From Bacillota bacterium (GTDB lineage Bacteria; Bacillota; Limnochordia; Darwinibacteriales; Darwinibacteriaceae), in assembly GCA_012521465.1 (NCBI GenBank), contig JAAYMI010000148.1:1-42652 (forward strand): a DNA stretch of 42,652 bases, in the 5' to 3' direction. A program made the position numbers and the translations under genes. Below, piece after piece: positions 34,639 through 42,652 of the stretch. How positions within the stretch are numbered: position 1 is the stretch's first letter; each line of letters begins with the position of its first letter. The notes under the pieces are model-generated. The model worked only from the letters and a program-made list of their open reading frames with translations. It was not told where the DNA came from and ran no database searches.

Positions 34639-34813
34639 GGGTACCACCTTTCTTCCAGGATTTGCATCAGTGTTTATTCCATAATTCTTCTTCCCAGTTC
34701 CGAGTCCTTTTTTGTGGATCATCTCAACTGCAATCCGGCGCACAGGGCGGAAGGAGTTTTCTAAGGCATGCCGAAAAATAGAGGTGAAACAAAACTATAC
34801 AGGAGGTCGTGGC

Positions 34814-35788
34814 ATGGCAAAAAGATTTAGTTTCTTATTGGTCGTCGCGTTAGTATTCAGCCTACTCACCGGTGCCGCCTTTGCTGAGCAAGTCCGGGTT
34901 GGCTTGGTCCTTTCAGAGGGTGGGCTGGGTGACCAATCCTTTAACGATGCAGCGTTCCGCGGGCTTTTGCGGGCCAGAGATGAACTTGGGATTTACTTCA
35001 GCTATGTAGAACCCTTTGATATCTCCGAAATGGAAGACCATCAGCGCTTCTTTGCTGATGCCGGCATGGATCTGGTCATCGCGATTGGTTTCACCCATGA
35101 AAGTGCGATGTACTCTGTAGCCCCAGACTATCCAGACACAAAGTTTGCGATTGTTGATACAGTTGTAGATCTGCCCAACGTTGCTTCCCTTGTATTCGAG
35201 GAGCATGAGGGTTCATTCCTCGTAGGTGTGGTTGCCGGTCTCATGACCAAGAGCAACAAGATCGGTTTTGTGGGCGGCATGGAAGTACCCCTCATCCGTA
35301 AGTTCCAAGTGGGCTTCGAAGAGGGCGTCCGCTATGTGAATCCGAATGCAGAGGTATTTGTGGGCTATGTAGGCGACTTCAACGACCCAGGCCGCGGCAA
35401 AGAAATGGCGATCAGCCAGTATGAGCGCGGTGCGGACGTTGTTTATCATGCTGCGGGCGGTACCGGCTTGGGTGTGATTGAAGCAGCAGCTGACAATGGT
35501 TTCTATGCCATCGGCGTAGACTCTGATCAAGACCACCTGGCTCCTGGAACGGTCTTGACCAGCATGGTGAAACGCGTCGACCTGGCCGTGTTCGAAACCA
35601 TTAAGGACGTGGTGGAAGGCAAGTTTGCGGCTGGCGTGCGCAGCTTTGGCGTTGTTGACGGCGGTGTAGGAACCAGCGAGTTCAACTTCACCAAGCACAT
35701 TGTACCTGAATCCGTACGGCAGAAGGTAGAAGAAGCCAGACAGAAGATCATCTCTGGCGAGATTGTGGTCACTGACCCAACGAAATAG
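34814..35788 (+). CDS. BMP/PnrA family ABC transporter substrate-binding protein
   Basis: A 324-residue binding protein of the basic membrane protein family, which bind purine nucleosides in characterised cases (PnrA, BmpA). The signal peptide (residues 1-23, ending AFA before EQVRVGLV) has no lipobox cysteine, though most relatives are lipoproteins. The mature start VGLVLSEGGLGDQSFNDAAF is the family signature; VYHAAGGTGLGVIEAA and the later IGVDSDQD are also typical. ATG 34814 follows AGGAGGT. It is the first gene of a complete importer (ATPase and two permeases follow). A terminator-like hairpin follows its stop. Confidence 0.94.
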   Translation: MAKRFSFLLVVALVFSLLTGAAFAEQVRVGLVLSEGGLGDQSFNDAAFRGLLRARDELGIYFSYVEPFDISEMEDHQRFFADAGMDLVIAIGFTHESAMYSVAPDYPDTKFAIVDTVVDLPNVASLVFEEHEGSFLVGVVAGLMTKSNKIGFVGGMEVPLIRKFQVGFEEGVRYVNPNAEVFVGYVGDFNDPGRGKEMAISQYERGADVVYHAAGGTGLGVIEAAADNGFYAIGVDSDQDHLAPGTVLTSMVKRVDLAVFETIKDVVEGKFAAGVRSFGVVDGGVGTSEFNFTKHIVPESVRQKVEEARQKIISGEIVVTDPTK

Positions 35789-35824
35789 CTCAGGCGCTAA
35801 GCAGTAGAACTTGAAAGGGATAAG

Positions 35825-35849
35825 GGGAGCAGTCACTGCTCCCTTTTTT
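35825..35849 (+). terminator. Intra-operon terminator/attenuator after the BMP-family gene
   Basis: An 8-bp perfect stem GGGAGCAG / CTGCTCCC, 3-nt loop, then six T. By form it is a strong intrinsic terminator, placed 36 bp after the binding-protein stop and 22 bp before the ATPase start. Partial readthrough would give more binding protein than ATPase and permeases. Confidence 0.85.
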
Positions 35850-35870
35850 CCCGATATAGGAGGCTTACCC

Positions 35871-37421
35871 ATGGCAACCGTCCTGGAAATGAAGGGGATC
35901 ACTAAACAGTTCCCCGGGGTGCTTGCTAACGACAACATTTCCTTGGATGTGGAAGAAGGGGAAATCCATGCGCTAGTGGGTGAGAACGGCTCAGGTAAAT
36001 CTACCTTGATGAGCATATTGTACGGGATCTACCGGGCAGATGCCGGCGAGATCTATGTGCGCGGTAAGAAGGTGGAGATCACCGAACCTCGTGATGCCAT
36101 CAACCTCAAGATTGGTATGGTGTTCCAGCACTTTATGCTGGTGGAGCCCCTCACTGTGGCGGAGAACATCGTCTTAGGTTCCGAGCTGAGGCGTGGACCG
36201 TTCCTCGATTACGATCAGGCTGTGCGGGAAGTGGAACGGCTGTCCGAGAGCTATGGGCTGAAGATCGATCCCCACGCCAAGATCCAAGACATATCTGTCG
36301 GCCTGCAGCAGCGGGTGGAGATTCTCAAAGCCCTATACAGGGGTGCCGAGATCTTGATCCTCGACGAACCCACGGCGGTCCTCACCCCGCAGGAAGTAGA
36401 TGACCTTATTGAGGTCATGCGCAATTTGCGTGCAAAAGGCACCAGTATCATATTTATTACCCATAAAATCCGGGAAGTTCTGGCCATCTCTGACCGGGTC
36501 ACGGTGCTGCGCCGGGGCAAGAAGGTGGGAACCAAACCGACCAGCGAAACAAATGCCCAAGATCTGGCAGAAATGATGGTGGGCCGCGAAGTGCTGCTGG
36601 AAGTGAAAAAGGACAAAGCAGAACCTGGAGAAGAAGTGCTCCAGATTCGGAACTTGGTCGTGAAAGATAGACGGGGTGCCCTCAAGGTAAACGGAGCGAG
36701 CCTAGCAGTGCGCCGCGGAGAGATACTGGGCATCGCCGGAGTTGAGGGCAACGGCCAGACTGAGCTCGTGGAGGCCATCGCCGGGCTGATTCGGCCTGAG
36801 TCAGGGCAGATTCTGCTCAACGACCGCGACATTACCCAGTGGTCGCCGCTCCGCATCAAGCAGGCTGGGCTGGGATACGTTCCGGAAGACCGCCACAGAC
36901 GCGGCTTGATCCTCGATTATACCGTGGCAGAAAACCTGATCTTAGGGCTCCACACGGAGGCCCCCTACAAGAGGAGGTTTGGCCTGCAGGATTTCCGGGC
37001 CACCAAGGACAACGCCGCCAAGTTAGTCGAAGCATTCGATATCCGGCCGCCGTTTCCCCATCAACCGGCCCGGAAGCTTTCCGGCGGCAACCAGCAGAAA
37101 GTGGTTGTGGCCCGGGAGTTTGACCGCAATCCTGATCTCTTAATCTGCGCCCAGCCTACCCGCGGCGTGGACATCGGCGCGATCGAGTTTATCCACCGCC
37201 AGGTTGTGGCTCAGCGGGACCGGGGTGCCGCAGTGCTGCTCGTCTCCGCAGAACTGGACGAGATTTTGTCCCTCAGCGACCGCATTGCGGTGATGTACAA
37301 CGGCAAGATTGTGGCCGTAATGCCGGTAGAGGAAGCGGACGAACACAAACTGGGCTTCCTTATGCTGGGCGGGCGCTTGGAGGATTATCAAGCTGGGGGA
37401 GGGAACAGCGTTGCTGGATAG
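35871..37421 (+). CDS. ABC transporter ATP-binding protein (tandem NBDs, BMP/nucleoside type)
   Basis: A 516-residue ATPase with two nucleotide-binding domains, as in RbsA/YufO-type importers. The first has Walker A GENGSGKST (residues 37-45), signature SVGLQQRVEIL and Walker B ILILDEPTAVL. The second has a degenerate Walker A GVEGNGQTE lacking the usual Lys, signature LSGGNQQKVVVA and LLICAQPTRGVDIG in place of Walker B, a normal asymmetry in this family. ATG 35871 is used because ATAGGAGG precedes it; an in-frame start at 35811 runs through the terminator. The next permease starts 11 bp before its stop. Confidence 0.95.
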   Translation: MATVLEMKGITKQFPGVLANDNISLDVEEGEIHALVGENGSGKSTLMSILYGIYRADAGEIYVRGKKVEITEPRDAINLKIGMVFQHFMLVEPLTVAENIVLGSELRRGPFLDYDQAVREVERLSESYGLKIDPHAKIQDISVGLQQRVEILKALYRGAEILILDEPTAVLTPQEVDDLIEVMRNLRAKGTSIIFITHKIREVLAISDRVTVLRRGKKVGTKPTSETNAQDLAEMMVGREVLLEVKKDKAEPGEEVLQIRNLVVKDRRGALKVNGASLAVRRGEILGIAGVEGNGQTELVEAIAGLIRPESGQILLNDRDITQWSPLRIKQAGLGYVPEDRHRRGLILDYTVAENLILGLHTEAPYKRRFGLQDFRATKDNAAKLVEAFDIRPPFPHQPARKLSGGNQQKVVVAREFDRNPDLLICAQPTRGVDIGAIEFIHRQVVAQRDRGAAVLLVSAELDEILSLSDRIAVMYNGKIVAVMPVEEADEHKLGFLMLGGRLEDYQAGGGNSVAG

Positions 37422-38454
37422 AATGAAGCGCATACCGTACCATGTGGTTTTGGCGCCCATCTTGGCTGTGCTGTTGGCCATGGTGGTAGGGTCAGGGTTT
37501 ATTCTCACCGTTGGGGAAAGCCCGTTTGCCGCCTATCGAGTCCTCCTGCAGGAATCCTTCGGCTCCATGCGCGGCTTTGCCACCACTTTGCAGCGGGCTA
37601 CACCTCTGATGTTTACGGGACTGGCCGTTGCCTTTGCCTTCCGGGCGGGGCTGTTCAACATTGGGGCAGAGGGCCAGCTCTATATCGGTGCCTTTGCCGC
37701 AGCTTGGGTTGGGTTTACCTTCACCAATCTGCCGAAGTTCATCCACCTGCCCTTTGCCATCCTGGCGAGCATGGTAGGCGGGGCCATTTGGGCGGCTGTG
37801 TCTGGCCTGCTGAAAGCTAAGTTCGGCATCCATGAAGTGATCAACTCCATTATGATGAACTATATCGCTTACTTCCTCACAGACTGGCTGGTCACGGGTC
37901 CGTTTCAGGGCAGCACGATGATCCCTGAGACCAAGCGGGTAGCTGCCAGCGCCACGCTCTCTCGGCTCATGCCGCCGACGCGGCTCACCACTGCTTTATA
38001 CGTCGCCCTTTTAGCTGCGGCAATCGTGTATTTTATCATGTGGAGAACTAAGCTGGGCTATGAAATCCGGGCAGTTGGCCTCAATCCCACAGCAGCGGAG
38101 TATGGCGGCATCAGCGTCGCGAGAATTACGGTAGCTGCCATGGCCATCAGTGGTGCATTGGCAGGCCTTGCAGGGATGGAACAGATTTTGGGCCTTAACA
38201 ACCGTTTCATCCAGCGGTTTTCGCCCGACCTGGGGTTTATGGGTGTGGCTGTAGCTCTCCTGGGCAAGAATCACCCCGTTGGCATCGTCCTGGCGGCGGT
38301 GCTCTTTGGTGCCCTGCAAACGGGGGCAGCGGCGATGGACCGCTTAACCAGCGTGCCCCGTGAGCTGATCACCATTCTGCAGGGTGTGATCATCTTCTTC
38401 ATCGCTGCGGAGTATCTCTTCAGCCGCTTTCTTAAGGTAAAGGGGGAAGCGTAG
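37411..38454 (+). CDS. ABC transporter permease (BMP/nucleoside importer, first)
   Basis: A 347-residue membrane permease of the RbsC-like family used by nucleoside importers (YufP/NupP type), with about nine or ten spans. Recognisable segments are ATPLMFTGLAVAFAFRAGLF with NIGAEGQLYIGAF, FGIHEVINSIMMNYIA and GMEQILGLN. The start is a TTG with GGGGGAGGG 7 bp upstream, overlapping the ATPase gene; an ATG at 37423 is a weaker alternative. The second permease begins directly after its stop. Confidence 0.93.
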   Translation: MLDRMKRIPYHVVLAPILAVLLAMVVGSGFILTVGESPFAAYRVLLQESFGSMRGFATTLQRATPLMFTGLAVAFAFRAGLFNIGAEGQLYIGAFAAAWVGFTFTNLPKFIHLPFAILASMVGGAIWAAVSGLLKAKFGIHEVINSIMMNYIAYFLTDWLVTGPFQGSTMIPETKRVAASATLSRLMPPTRLTTALYVALLAAAIVYFIMWRTKLGYEIRAVGLNPTAAEYGGISVARITVAAMAISGALAGLAGMEQILGLNNRFIQRFSPDLGFMGVAVALLGKNHPVGIVLAAVLFGALQTGAAAMDRLTSVPRELITILQGVIIFFIAAEYLFSRFLKVKGEA

Positions 38455-39387
38455 ATGTGGGATCTAATTGGGCTGCTGGTGAATACCACTGTTTTCGCTG
38501 CAACTCTCCGCATGGCCACCCCCTTGCTGTTTACGGCGGTGGGAGGCCTCTTTTCTGAACGGAGCGGCGTGGTCAACATCGGGCTGGAAGGCATGATGCT
38601 GATCGGCGCTTTTACTGCCGTTGCCGTGTCGTACTTTACCGGTTCGCCTTGGATTGGAGTCCTCGGTGCCCTGGCGGCAGGTAGCTTGATGGGCTTTCTG
38701 CACGGCGTGGCTTCCATCAAGTACCGGGCTAATCAGGTGGTGAGCGGAACAGCGATCAACATTTTCGCCGGAGGACTCACAGTCTACCTCCAGCGGCTGA
38801 TCTTTAAGATGGCGGGAGTATCCGAGGCTGTACCCCGGATAGTTGACGTGGAGCTTCCTATAATCAGCAGGATTCCCTGGATCGGTCCGGTGATCGGGCG
38901 GCAGAATCCCATGGTTTATCTAGCTCTCCTCACTGTATTTGCAGCCCACATCGTGATCTTCAAGACCGTGTGGGGCCTCAGGCTCCGCTCAGTGGGCGAA
39001 CACCCTGGGGCGGCAGACAGCGTAGGAATCAACGTTTACAAGACCCGCTACATCGCGGTCACCCTCAGCGGCGCTTTGGCCGGCGTGGGTGGCGCCTATC
39101 TCTCCGTGGCGCATCTCAGCCGGTTTGTTGAGGGGATGACGGCGGGACGGGGGTTCATTGCCCTGGCCGCGATGATCTTCGGCAAGTGGAATCCCATCGG
39201 GGCTTTAGGAGCTTGCCTGTTCTTTGGCTACGCAGACGCCATGCAGATGCGCCTCCAGGAAATCGGGATTCCCACGCAGTTTGTGCAGATGATGCCGTAT
39301 GTCCTCACCATGATTGCTCTGATCGGGTTCATTGGGCGGGCTGTAGCTCCTAAGGCTTCTGGTCAGCCGTATGTGAAGGAAGGTTAA
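38455..39387 (+). CDS. ABC transporter permease (BMP/nucleoside importer, second)
   Basis: A 310-residue partner permease (YufQ/NupQ type), with about eight to ten spans. Family segments include ATPLLFTAVGGLFSERSGVV with NIGLEGMMLIGAF, YRANQVVSGTAINIFAGG and RSVGEHPGAADSVGINV. Its ATG immediately follows the TAG of the first permease (GTAGATG), with AAGGGGG as ribosome site. Together the two form the heteromeric channel; the PHP hydrolase follows after 12 bp. Confidence 0.94.
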   Translation: MWDLIGLLVNTTVFAATLRMATPLLFTAVGGLFSERSGVVNIGLEGMMLIGAFTAVAVSYFTGSPWIGVLGALAAGSLMGFLHGVASIKYRANQVVSGTAINIFAGGLTVYLQRLIFKMAGVSEAVPRIVDVELPIISRIPWIGPVIGRQNPMVYLALLTVFAAHIVIFKTVWGLRLRSVGEHPGAADSVGINVYKTRYIAVTLSGALAGVGGAYLSVAHLSRFVEGMTAGRGFIALAAMIFGKWNPIGALGACLFFGYADAMQMRLQEIGIPTQFVQMMPYVLTMIALIGFIGRAVAPKASGQPYVKEG

Positions 39388-39399
39388 GGAGGCGGGTTC

Positions 39400-40845
39400 A
39401 TGCGCCGGGCATTTCAGAAGATTATTAGGCTCCATCCCGAGGATACGAAAAAGCTTGTTCCCATTCCCATTGAGATTCCCACCGGGACAGAGGCACTGCG
39501 CATCAAGTTCAGCTACTCTCCGATGGAGGTTGATGACCTGGAGTTAGGCAGGAACCTGATGCGCGCCAAGGTGAAATCGTATGCCGCGGCCTGCGAGGGC
39601 GACCCCAATATTCCCCCTGCTGTGCAGGCGTTTTGGCTGCAGCTGGCGCAGGATGTGGACCGTTTCCTGCCGCTGCGCAATCTTTTGAACTTCTCCCTCT
39701 ACGACCCTACGGGCCGTTTCCGGGGCCGCTGGGACTCGCCCCAGTATTTTGGCAGATGGGCGGAAATGGGGCCAGACCTCAGCCGAGGCTTTATCTGTGG
39801 TGGGGTCACTGCCGGCGAATGGACTTTGGAACTGGAAGTCCATGCCCTGCTGTCCAAAGAGGTCGAAGCGGTCCTTGAGGTTGAAATCTTGGGCGCAGAC
39901 GCTCCCCGGTGGTTTGCAGGTGAGATGCACTCCCATACCAACCACAGCGACGGCAGAGCTTCCTTGGCTGAAGTACGCCAAGCTGTGCGGGAGCACGGGT
40001 TGGACTTTATGGTGCTGTCCGATCACAACACCATCGCGGCTCACCCCGACATTCCGAAAGAAAACCGCCAGCCCTTGGTGATTCCTGGACTGGAGTGGAC
40101 CACCTTCCACGGCCATGCTGTGGCGGTGGGGGTGAGGGAGTACATCGATTGGCGGGCCGAGAAACAAGATACACTGCACGAGAAGACAGCAGCTGTGCAC
40201 AGGCAGGGCGGACTGGTAAGTATTGCCCACCCGTTTACTGTGGGCGACCCCTTCTGCACGGGGTGCGAGTGGGAGTACGCCAATGTGGATCCCCGCGACG
40301 TGGATCTAGTGGAGATTTGGTCTGGCTCGTGGCAGAAACACGCCATTCCCAACTGGCGGGCGCTCACGTGGTGGGATGAGCTGCTCAATCGGGGCTGCCG
40401 GATTACGGGCGTTGGCGCACGGGACCTGCACCGCTTGGAACAGCTCGATGAACCTGATACCGCTAATACCTACGTCTGGGCACCGATATGTTCCGAAGAA
40501 GAGATTATTGCCGCCCTGAAGCGCGGCGCAGTGCAGGTTTCCCAAGGAGCGCTGGCGGAGTTAGGGGTACAGACGAAAAGCGGAGCTGTCTATACGATAG
40601 GGGATACCATCCCGCGCCATGAACAAGCAGAGGCTGAGCTGCACGTCAGTGTCAGTGGTTTGGAAGGTGCTGGTGAGCTGCGCCTGATCGGAAACGGCAG
40701 AGTGATTCAGCGGGTCAGGGGATATAGCGGCGAACCCGTTGCCTTTGCCGTGCCAGGCGAGATTAGCTGGCTGAGGGTGCAGGTGCACCGCACCACTGCC
40801 GATGAAACCCCTCTCCTGATCACAAATCCCGTCTACTTTAGTTAA
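39400..40845 (+). CDS. CehA/McbA-type PHP-domain metallohydrolase
   Basis: A 481-residue protein. An N-terminal beta-rich region (about 1-165) is followed by a PHP hydrolase domain (about 170-370): EMHSHTNHSDG (HxH and Asp ligands), VLSDHNTIAAH, IPGLEWTTFHGHAVAVG, LVSIAHPF and GVGARDLHRL (late Asp-x-His). A C-terminal beta domain (about 385-480) may bind a ligand. CehA/McbA relatives hydrolyse esters or phosphodiesters, but the real substrate is rarely known. AAGGAGG precedes the ATG. It is the last gene of the BMP-family importer operon, so its substrate is likely the imported compound or a product of it. No signal peptide is seen. Confidence 0.88.
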   Translation: MRRAFQKIIRLHPEDTKKLVPIPIEIPTGTEALRIKFSYSPMEVDDLELGRNLMRAKVKSYAAACEGDPNIPPAVQAFWLQLAQDVDRFLPLRNLLNFSLYDPTGRFRGRWDSPQYFGRWAEMGPDLSRGFICGGVTAGEWTLELEVHALLSKEVEAVLEVEILGADAPRWFAGEMHSHTNHSDGRASLAEVRQAVREHGLDFMVLSDHNTIAAHPDIPKENRQPLVIPGLEWTTFHGHAVAVGVREYIDWRAEKQDTLHEKTAAVHRQGGLVSIAHPFTVGDPFCTGCEWEYANVDPRDVDLVEIWSGSWQKHAIPNWRALTWWDELLNRGCRITGVGARDLHRLEQLDEPDTANTYVWAPICSEEEIIAALKRGAVQVSQGALAELGVQTKSGAVYTIGDTIPRHEQAEAELHVSVSGLEGAGELRLIGNGRVIQRVRGYSGEPVAFAVPGEISWLRVQVHRTTADETPLLITNPVYFS

Positions 40846-40851
40846 TTTCCT

Positions 40852-40880
40852 TTGACATTCCCCCAGCGGGGATGTAAAAT
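40852..40880 (+). promoter_or_regulatory. Promoter of the T-box-controlled gene
   Basis: A consensus TTGACA (40852-40857), exactly 17 bp, then TAAAAT (40875-40880) preceded by TG. This is the strongest promoter match in the window. It lies 6 bp past the PHP hydrolase stop. Confidence 0.92.
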
Positions 40881-40895
40881 AGAGATAATATCAAA

Positions 40896-41147
40896 ATGAG
40901 CAACGGCGATGATAGGGAGAAGTACATTCATCAGCGACTTACAGAGAGCCAAGGGGTGGTGGAACTTGGCAGTCAAGATGGGCGGAAATACACCCTTGAG
41001 CTGCGAGCTGAATTAGCAGTAGGCTTAGCCGTATGCCGGCGTTAACGGCTGCGGGAGTGATGGCTCCCTAAGAGTGGGTTCCGTATGGAATCAATTCAGG
41101 TGGTACCGCGGCTTATAGTCGTCCTGTGCAGCAGGACGGCTTTTTTT
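40896..41147 (+). promoter_or_regulatory. T-box leader, candidate tyrosine specifier UAC
   Basis: The leader senses uncharged tRNA. It has GGAGAAGTAC in the Stem I lower part (from 40916), the apical ACAGAGAGCC (about 40941) and the antiterminator T-box CAGGTGGTACCGCG (41097-41110). The terminator stem GTCGTCCTG / CAGGACGGC (41118-41126, 41132-41140) is followed by seven T. The specifier region reads GGAAATACACCC followed by CTTGAG, placing UAC (Tyr) at 40989-40991 in the usual setting before ACC. The T-box base after UGG is U, pairing with discriminator A73 as in tRNA-Tyr, not with G73 of tRNA-Trp. It fills the 328-bp gap before the lyase gene. The T-box is certain; the amino acid is likely. 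Confidence 0.93.
41118..41147 (+). terminator. T-box intrinsic terminator
   Basis: A 9-bp stem GTCGTCCTG / CAGGACGGC with a 5-nt loop, then seven T. The alternative to this helix is the antiterminator formed with 41097-41110. Confidence 0.93.
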
Positions 41148-41173
41148 ATTACATTCAACCTGGAGGGATAGAA

Positions 41174-42625
41174 ATGACCCATATTCACTTTTTCTCAGGC
41201 GAGCAGATTCCGGTGGAGATGCACAAGACGAAAATCCTGCAGAAGCTCACCCTCATACCAACACAGGAGCGCTTGGCGGCCATTGCGGCAGCAGGCTACA
41301 ACACGTTCTTGCTGCAGAACGCACAGGTGTTCTTGGATATGCTCACTGACAGCGGCACCAATGCTATGAGCGATCAGCAGCTGGCAGCCATGATGGTGGC
41401 AGATGACAGCTACGCTGGGTCCCAGACCTTTACCAGACTGGAGCGGGTGTGCCGGGCGATCTTTGAAAAGGAACAGTTCATTCCCGCGCACCAAGGCAGA
41501 GCATGCGAGCACCTTTTGGCCCAAGTATTAGTGAAGCCCGGCCAGCTTGTGCCCATGAATTACCACTTCACTACAACAAAGGCGCATATCGTGCGGATGG
41601 GGGGCATAGTGGTTGAGCTTCCCCATGCTGAAGCACTGGATCCGGAGAGCACCTGCCCATTTAAGGGGAATATGGATGTGGGCGCCCTGCGCCGGCTGCT
41701 GGAGGAAGAGGGACCGGAGAGCGTGGCGTTTGTGCGGATGGAGGCGGGAACTAACTTAATTGGGGGCCAGCCCTTCAGCCTCGCCAACCTGGAGGATGTC
41801 TACGCGGTCTGCCGTGAGTTCGGAGTACTGCTGATCTTGGATGCAAGTCTGCTTGCGGACAATCTCTATTTCATCAAAGCTAGGGAAGAGGCCTGTCGGG
41901 AAATGTCCATTGCTCAGATCACCAAAGCAATAGCCAAGAACACTGATGTGATCTACTTCTCCGCCCGCAAGCTTGGCTGCGCTAGGGGTGGTGGGATCTG
42001 CACCAGCGATGGGCAGCTGGCGGCAAGCCTGAAGGAACTGCTCCCCCTATTTGAGGGATTCCTTACATATGGTGGTATGAGCGTGCGGGAAATGGAAGCC
42101 CTGGCGGTGGGTCTAGAAGAGACCTTGGACGAAGATATGATCAGCCAAGGCCCCCAGTTTATCGCCTACATGGTGGATGAGCTGCACAAACAGGGAGTGC
42201 CCGTTGTGAATCCTCCTGGAGGATTAGGGTGCCATCTTGATGCCAAACGGTTCCTCCCGCACGTGCCTCAGAATCAGTACCCAGCCGGTGCCTTAGCGGC
42301 AGCGCTGTACATCGTGAGCGGAATCCGGGGGATGGAGCGGGGAACGCTGTCAGAGCAGCGCAATCCTGACGGTACAGAACCTCTCGCGGATATGGAGCTT
42401 CTGCGCCTTGCACTGCCCCGGCGAGTGTTTACCCTATCTCAGGTGAAGTACGCGGTTGACCGGATTACATGGCTCTACGAGAACCGCGACCTCGTGGGTG
42501 GGCTGCAATTTGTGGAAGAACCCGCGACCCTGCGCTTCTTCCTGGGACGATTGGCACCGATTGGCGACTGGCCGATGCAGCTTGCCCAGGCATTGGAGAA
42601 AAATCTCAGCTTCAGTACCCTCTAG
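41174..42625 (+). CDS. PLP-dependent beta-eliminating lyase (tyrosine phenol-lyase-like)
   Basis: A 483-residue fold-type-I PLP enzyme related to tyrosine phenol-lyase (TPL) and tryptophanase. Visible: LTDSGTNAMSD (substrate carboxylate), DDSYAGSQTF (Tyr71 of TPL), AHQGRACE (Arg100), YHFTTTKAH (TPL-type Thr124, tryptophanase has Asp), TNLIGGQP (Asn185), the PLP lysine in FSARKLGC, GIRGMERG (Arg381) and LRFFLGRL (TPL-type Phe448). The segment ILDASLLADN keeps Asp214, but the Arg217 of TPL and tryptophanase is Leu. TPL splits tyrosine to phenol, pyruvate and ammonia, reversibly; whether this protein does so is uncertain. ATG 41174 has GGAGGG upstream. It is controlled by the T-box leader just before it. 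Confidence 0.88.
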   Translation: MTHIHFFSGEQIPVEMHKTKILQKLTLIPTQERLAAIAAAGYNTFLLQNAQVFLDMLTDSGTNAMSDQQLAAMMVADDSYAGSQTFTRLERVCRAIFEKEQFIPAHQGRACEHLLAQVLVKPGQLVPMNYHFTTTKAHIVRMGGIVVELPHAEALDPESTCPFKGNMDVGALRRLLEEEGPESVAFVRMEAGTNLIGGQPFSLANLEDVYAVCREFGVLLILDASLLADNLYFIKAREEACREMSIAQITKAIAKNTDVIYFSARKLGCARGGGICTSDGQLAASLKELLPLFEGFLTYGGMSVREMEALAVGLEETLDEDMISQGPQFIAYMVDELHKQGVPVVNPPGGLGCHLDAKRFLPHVPQNQYPAGALAAALYIVSGIRGMERGTLSEQRNPDGTEPLADMELLRLALPRRVFTLSQVKYAVDRITWLYENRDLVGGLQFVEEPATLRFFLGRLAPIGDWPMQLAQALEKNLSFSTL

Positions 42626-42652
42626 ACTTGCAGAATGACAAGGCCGCCGCGA

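Follow-up and report, generated by a model that had tools for sequence, protein, structure and literature searches.

A tyrosine-type T-box leader precedes a separate branch of the tyrosine phenol-lyase/tryptophanase family in Bacillota: a possible route to tyrosine

In the draft genome of an anaerobic member of the Bacillota (Limnochordia, Darwinibacteriaceae), a complete T-box leader of the tyrosine type is found directly upstream of a gene encoding a beta-eliminating-lyase-like protein. Judged by its sequence, this protein is not a standard tyrosine phenol-lyase (TPL) but belongs to a separate branch outside TPL and tryptophanase, which is designated clade X in the following. The interpretation that is favored here, with rather more confidence than doubt, is that clade X comprises an anabolic or salvage enzyme under a canonical tyrosine T-box, which would form tyrosine, probably from phenol, pyruvate, and ammonia; this chemistry is inferred and not shown. 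The stretch of DNA analyzed, referred to as the window, comprises 42,652 nucleotides of contig JAAYMI010000148.1 (assembly GCA_012521465.1).

Leader architecture and enzyme identity

The T-box leader RNA, reaching from Stem I to the antiterminator, occupies positions 40900 to 41129 of the plus strand. It is matched by the Rfam family RF00230 over the full length of the model (1-219) with 137.3 bits against a gathering score of 93 (E 1.3e-30), which is the sole Rfam match in the window and the best score among the 11 T-boxes of the genome. A predicted sigma-70-type promoter lies upstream on the same strand at 40852-40880 (-35 element TTGACA at 40852-40857, 17-nt spacer, -10 element TAAAAT at 40875-40880). 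It shares 11 of 12 positions with the consensus and is the single match of the consensus scan in the region, with 0.6 expected in shuffles; it begins exactly at the nucleotide where the initial annotation had set the start of the unit. In the Rfam covariance alignment, the tyrosine codon UAC is placed at 40989-40991 (+) in the specifier loop, flanked as GGAAA-UAC-ACCC. The T-box sequence UGGU is read at 41101-41104 (+). From 41117 to 41149 (+), the terminator scan and RNA folding give an intrinsic terminator, AGTCGTCCTG TGC AGCAGGACGGCT (41117-41141) followed by a T tract, with 11 pairs and -17.2 kcal/mol, which overlaps the 3′ arm of the antiterminator. By direct reading, a ribosome-binding site, GGAGGG (41162-41167, +), is located 6 nt ahead of the ATG of the clade-X gene (41174-42625, +; 483 amino acids); the contig, and the window with it, stops at 42652, and nothing downstream of that gene is visible. 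Covariance score, a specifier and UGGN consistent with one tRNA, and the overlap of terminator and antiterminator all meet what defines a T-box leader, and the leader is complete, as had been proposed from the letters alone; the covariance-model search with specifier prediction that had been suggested as a check has borne this out. Switching by uncharged tRNA-Tyr is inferred.

The compatibility of UGGU with tRNA-Tyr, likewise claimed at the outset, is upheld by an internal control, namely the other T-boxes of the same genome. The fourth base of the T-box sequence follows the tRNA class, with UGGU at tyrS, UGGC at trpS and serS, and UGGA at thrS and cysE, which is in line with the usual discriminator bases. 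According to textbook assignments, UGGU presumably fits A73 of tRNA-Tyr and would not fit G73 of tRNA-Trp. For a check of A73, a tRNA-Tyr gene was not located in the draft window genome with two patterns, and no inference is drawn from this.

The encoded protein was characterized by NCBIfam and Pfam profiles, PDB homology, alignment, a phylogenetic tree, and an AlphaFold model. It belongs to the PF01212/PRK13238 family (NF009709, 589.9 versus 285 bits; PF01212, 168.6 versus 27) and contains the catalytic lysine as Lys266, which corresponds to K257 of TPL. The description as a TPL-like gene directly downstream of the T-box stands insofar as the protein belongs to the beta-eliminating-lyase family and its closest solved relatives are TPLs, with about 40% identity; it does not stand as far as membership in the TPL equivalog TIGR02618 is concerned, where the score of 434.2 bits (406-476 for the orthologues) is below the cut-off of 720.7. 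Neither of the tryptophanase equivalogs is reached (TIGR02617, 337 versus a cut-off of 825.8; NF053783, 371 versus 750). The AlphaFold model, built with 34 own sequences (pLDDT 86.9), finds its best structural matches among TPLs (TM 0.88/0.93). In a maximum-likelihood tree, 61 clade-X sequences are split from TPL plus tryptophanase by a branch with 100/100 support.

Five positions separate TPL (T124, M288, M379, R381, F448) from tryptophanase (D, F, V, I, H) (PMC5805759), and R381 is needed for activity on tyrosine (PMC5805759; also PMC3870968). All full-length clade-X sequences aligned carry T, F, M, R, and F at these positions (T133, F296, M387, R389, and F455 in the window protein), so that four of the five are TPL-type and only M288 is replaced, by Phe. 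Compared with the TPLs of C. freundii and E. herbicola (PDB 2EZ1, 1C7G, 9J3U), clade X has the fold and the catalytic lysine in common, and the phenol-site residues T124, M379, R381, F448, F449, F123, and F36 are kept. With tryptophanase (tryptophan indole-lyase) it shares the superfamily and the Phe at the M288 position, while D137, I396, and H463 of that enzyme are absent and T, R, and F are found instead. A Trp specifier or a tryptophanase identity is ruled out by UAC, UGGU, and these residues.

Besides the M288 exchange, every clade-X member differs from TPL by R217 to Leu, K256 to Arg, E69 to Asp, and N262 to Arg together with a one-residue deletion (L226, R265, and R271 in the window protein at R217, K256, and N262), changes that are seen in no TPL or tryptophanase compared. 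In TPL, the four residues are taken to contact O3′ of PLP and the monovalent cation (K+); an arginine of clade X may stand in for the cation, which is a guess. It is from this constellation that the first alternative draws its support. Clade X could supply tyrosine without free phenol, either by releasing or remodeling it from some other aromatic amino acid that is modified or beta-substituted, or by beta-replacement with a different donor. The invariant exchanges and the deletion suggest altered PLP chemistry, and the regulation says only that the product relieves a shortage of tyrosine. Set against this are the mostly TPL-type specificity positions, including R381 and T124, and the lack of a conserved partner gene for another substrate next to clade X, and this alternative is regarded as unlikely, though worth keeping in mind.

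Conservation of the T-box and its absence from sampled true TPLs

Relatives of the protein turned up at 49 loci in the homologue scan, which took one genome per species; 47 of these loci fall in the same close clade. A T-box directly upstream of the clade-X gene is found in the close relative L012 and in L013, L014, L028, L038 (Halothermothrix MAG), L041 (Bacilli MAG), L049 (Clostridiales MAG), and L056 (the cultured Acidaminobacter hydrogenoformans DSM 2784). In the window's class, for which 73 genomes were surveyed, all 18 clade-X genes of the window's order that have upstream sequence are preceded by a T-box. A sample of 391 Clostridia contained 29 genomes with a clade-X gene, at least five of them with a T-box that exceeds the gathering score (L120, L124, L132, L133, L134); for a sixth, L137, there is pattern evidence only. 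Variant T-box cores in Clostridia, UGGUAACACG and UGGUAUCACG, were missed by the strict core pattern and recovered by Rfam. Additional T-boxes were observed downstream of clade-X genes, namely a UGG (Trp) T-box just behind the gene at L048:7509-7756 and a second T-box at L133:1115-1351.

Leaving duplicates out, all 27 distinct T-boxes on clade-X genes have a UAC specifier, never one for Phe or Trp; the sequence around UAC varies among these leaders, and they span several Bacillota lineages. The genome survey for T-boxes next to TPL-like genes that had been suggested returned the same specifier in every distinct T-box found on clade-X genes, and the conflict noted at the outset, a tyrosine T-box on a lyase-like gene, is a real and deeply conserved paradox. 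The uniform specifier also bears on the idea that this tyrosine-regulated gene makes a different compound in aromatic shortage, be it another aromatic amino acid or a signaling aromatic. That the substrate is unproven and that Phe stands at the M288 position, as it does in tryptophanase, leaves room for it; the exclusive tyrosine specifier in 27 leaders speaks against it, as do R381 and T124, which argue for a hydroxyphenyl ring, and it is considered improbable.

The window's bacterial family also encodes true TPLs, which exceed the cut-off of TIGR02618 with 845-856 bits. The window genome has one of its own on contig C85 (G000; L144:2-1099, minus strand), which is cut by the contig end and scores 663 bits over 366 residues. 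The true TPLs sampled in the same class show no T-box core within about 1.5 kb of upstream sequence, nor did the genome-wide T-box search detect a T-box on the contig with the TPL fragment of the window genome. Accordingly, the T-box goes with clade X and not with the catabolic enzyme. Within the window genome, where target genes were named from their own sequences, T-boxes precede nine synthetase genes (trpS, ileS, thrS, leuS, valS, metS, pheS, tyrS, serS), cysE, and the clade-X gene. The tyrS gene (L010) has its own UAC T-box, and that of cysE has the Cys specifier UGC. Among the T-boxes found, the tyrosine regulon thus consists of tyrS and clade X, and the only other target that is not a synthetase, cysE, is biosynthetic.

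Across the loci examined, no conserved neighbors naming a substrate were found, and the clade-X gene usually stands alone; an ilvE-like aminotransferase gene adjoins it in two loci only (L012, L013). Upstream of T-box-less clade-X members, no pattern of Tyr-rich leader peptides was seen, and no tyrosine-linked leader is evident in proteobacterial, acidobacterial, and other non-Bacillota members. The same enzyme, with 65-68% identity, occurs in phototrophic and aromatic-degrading Proteobacteria of the genera Rhodopseudomonas, Rhodoplanes, Aromatoleum, Brachymonas, and Rhodocyclus (L019-L037). Neither a tyrosine-linked leader nor conserved neighbors are evident at these loci; horizontal transfer is likely, and the role of the enzyme there is unknown.

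Tyrosine supply and a second leader type

In the window genome, which is 98.6% complete, profile searches did not find prephenate dehydrogenase (tyrA, PF02153) or prephenate dehydratase (pheA, PF00800), while chorismate synthase (aroC) was found; 14 of 14 control genomes were positive for the tyrA, pheA, and aroC profiles. The absence of tyrA and pheA rests on profile searches of draft genomes. Within the window's family, tyrA is missing in 22 of 23 genomes and clade X in 13 of 23. In the three family members tested for it (the window genome, L012, and L013), pheA was also not found and chorismate synthase is kept, the picture of apparent Phe/Tyr auxotrophs with a shikimate pathway. In a named set of genomes, no tyrA hit was obtained in 6 of 9 with T-box and clade X versus 3 of 39 others, the six being phylogenetically clustered; several T-box/clade-X genomes of neighboring families keep tyrA. 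As a general rule, a role of clade X as strict replacement of tyrA is ruled out, since class-wide it is found both with and without tyrA and the greater part of the tyrA-less family does not have it. Given this distribution, it looks like a salvage route, present in part of the tyrosine auxotrophs and also in part of the prototrophs. True indolepyruvate oxidoreductase, considered as a further way to salvage aromatics, gave only sub-cut-off matches in the window genome, and a phenol source did not come to light.

A different leader is seen at many clade-X genes that lack a T-box; in it, tandem 8-nt units NAGNNYGG (consensus GGTAGGATGGTAGG) lie close to the start of the transcript, in many cases with a terminator behind them, and there is no Rfam family for it. 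It is located 100-330 nt upstream of the clade-X gene in L116, L117, L118, L119, L121, L131, L122, L123, L125, L126, L129, and L048; in L017, L039, and L060 the repeat is near the ribosome-binding site, and L038 has both a T-box and the repeat (L038:5933). With a weight matrix derived from clade-X leaders only, the surroundings of tyrA, up to 20 kb per region, were scored in 15 genomes with T-box-less clade X. In four genomes (L146; L150, at about 8796; L153; L156, at L156:8878), the best repeat site of the region precedes aroF, which encodes DAHP synthase as judged from its sequence, by at most 100 nt, and in one (L159) it lies just upstream of tyrA. These 5 of 15 compare with 0.29 expected by area and with a maximum of 3 among 200 column-permuted matrices, and the count remained 5 of 15 when each genome's own clade-X sites were left out of the matrix. 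The definition of the motif came after the clade-X leaders had been viewed and preceded the scoring of most aroF/tyrA regions; an earlier look with looser patterns had already given two aroF cases. The repeat sites ahead of aroF and tyrA suggest an aromatic (tyrosine) regulon in these Clostridia. T-box-less clade X thus tends to be under the same control as the entry into aromatic amino-acid synthesis, which, on the strength of motif comparison, would be a second, independent regulatory link to that pathway. That clade X is catabolic after all, with the tyrosine T-box signaling some other state such as growth arrest, or pyruvate and ammonia salvage in amino-acid shortage, can appeal to the well-studied family members TPL and tryptophanase, which degrade their own amino acids in vivo, but is very hard to reconcile with true TPL paralogues without T-boxes in the same family, with the motif shared with aroF/tyrA, and with a pairing kept across several Bacillota lineages in spite of the self-defeating destruction of tyrosine upon tyrosine starvation.

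Proposed role of clade X

For the favored interpretation of clade X as a tyrosine-forming enzyme, the following scenario is proposed. The T-box would read the charging of tRNA-Tyr through the UAC specifier and UGGU; uncharged tRNA-Tyr would stabilize the antiterminator, and the clade-X gene would be transcribed. Most likely working as a TPL in reverse, the enzyme would then build L-tyrosine out of phenol with either pyruvate and ammonia or a C3 donor of the serine type. The TPL reaction is reversible, and the reverse direction is used industrially for the production of tyrosine and L-DOPA. Switching by tRNA-Tyr, the reaction direction, and the substrates are all inferred, and there is still room for a serine-type donor or for a different hydroxyphenyl substrate. 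This step would constitute a chorismate-independent salvage, analogous to the indole salvage by TrpB, the beta subunit of tryptophan synthase, in which a free aromatic ring and a C3 unit are joined to an amino acid; the analogy is functional only, since TrpB is of fold-type II, uses indole and serine, and has no homology to clade X.

Concerning its regulation, the leader resembles tyrS-type T-boxes (RF00230; B. subtilis tyrS) in Stem I with UAC, in UGGU, and in the antiterminator/terminator switch, while its target is a TPL-family enzyme and not a synthetase. That a tyrosine-forming enzyme outside the canonical set can be placed under a T-box has a precedent: in the B. cereus group, phenylalanine 4-hydroxylase has a tyrosine T-box (PMC2494555). 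Different from clade X, that enzyme is a hydroxylase using phenylalanine and belongs to an unrelated protein family.

In favor of tyrosine formation, the complete T-box, the 27 of 27 UAC specifiers, the 18 of 18 T-boxes in the order, the separate clade, the four of five TPL-type residues, the lack of T-boxes on sampled true TPLs, the biosynthetic target cysE, the failure of profile searches to find tyrA and pheA, and the repeat common to aroF/tyrA were counted. Counted against it were the lack of a known activity of any clade-X member, the replacement of R217, K256, E69, and N262, by which the reaction could differ, and the lack of an identified phenol source and of an evident tyrosine-linked leader in non-Bacillota members. 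Many T-box/clade-X genomes moreover keep tyrA and most of the tyrA-less family lacks clade X, which thus does not strictly replace tyrA and is not indispensable there. The idea put forward at the outset, a lyase working in the synthetic direction or repurposed for supplying tyrosine, is in this way supported by comparative evidence, the reaction itself remaining an inference. A more far-reaching version, to which somewhat less than an even chance is given, would see clade X as a dedicated natural tyrosine synthase, independent of chorismate and using phenol, pyruvate, and ammonia, which is controlled by a T-box in some lineages and by the undescribed repeat leader shared with aroF/tyrA in others and which, where tyrA is missing, may even be the sole supply of tyrosine from within the cell.

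Neither T-boxes nor the lyase fold are new; a dedicated branch of the TPL/tryptophanase family that would be induced by tyrosine starvation is, as far as could be found, undescribed. The open-access papers searched include none that deals with T-box control of a TPL or with an anabolic role of TPL, and no organism is known to make its own tyrosine with a TPL-type enzyme. There is a substantial chance that clade X represents a new route to tyrosine. If so, it would be a new entry point into an amino acid, and phenol, a waste product of protein fermentation, would become a recyclable building block in anaerobic communities. Predictions of auxotrophy that rest on tyrA alone would change, and a ready set of synthesis-adapted enzymes would be at hand for biocatalysis. 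The automatic family name "tryptophanase" would in that case be misleading for the whole of clade X.

Upstream of the T-box unit, at 34712-40845, the window encodes a Bmp/PnrA-type substrate-binding protein, an ABC ATPase, and two permeases, followed by a weakly matching PHP-domain-like protein. These genes are kept in the close relative L012 and are apparently unrelated to the T-box unit.
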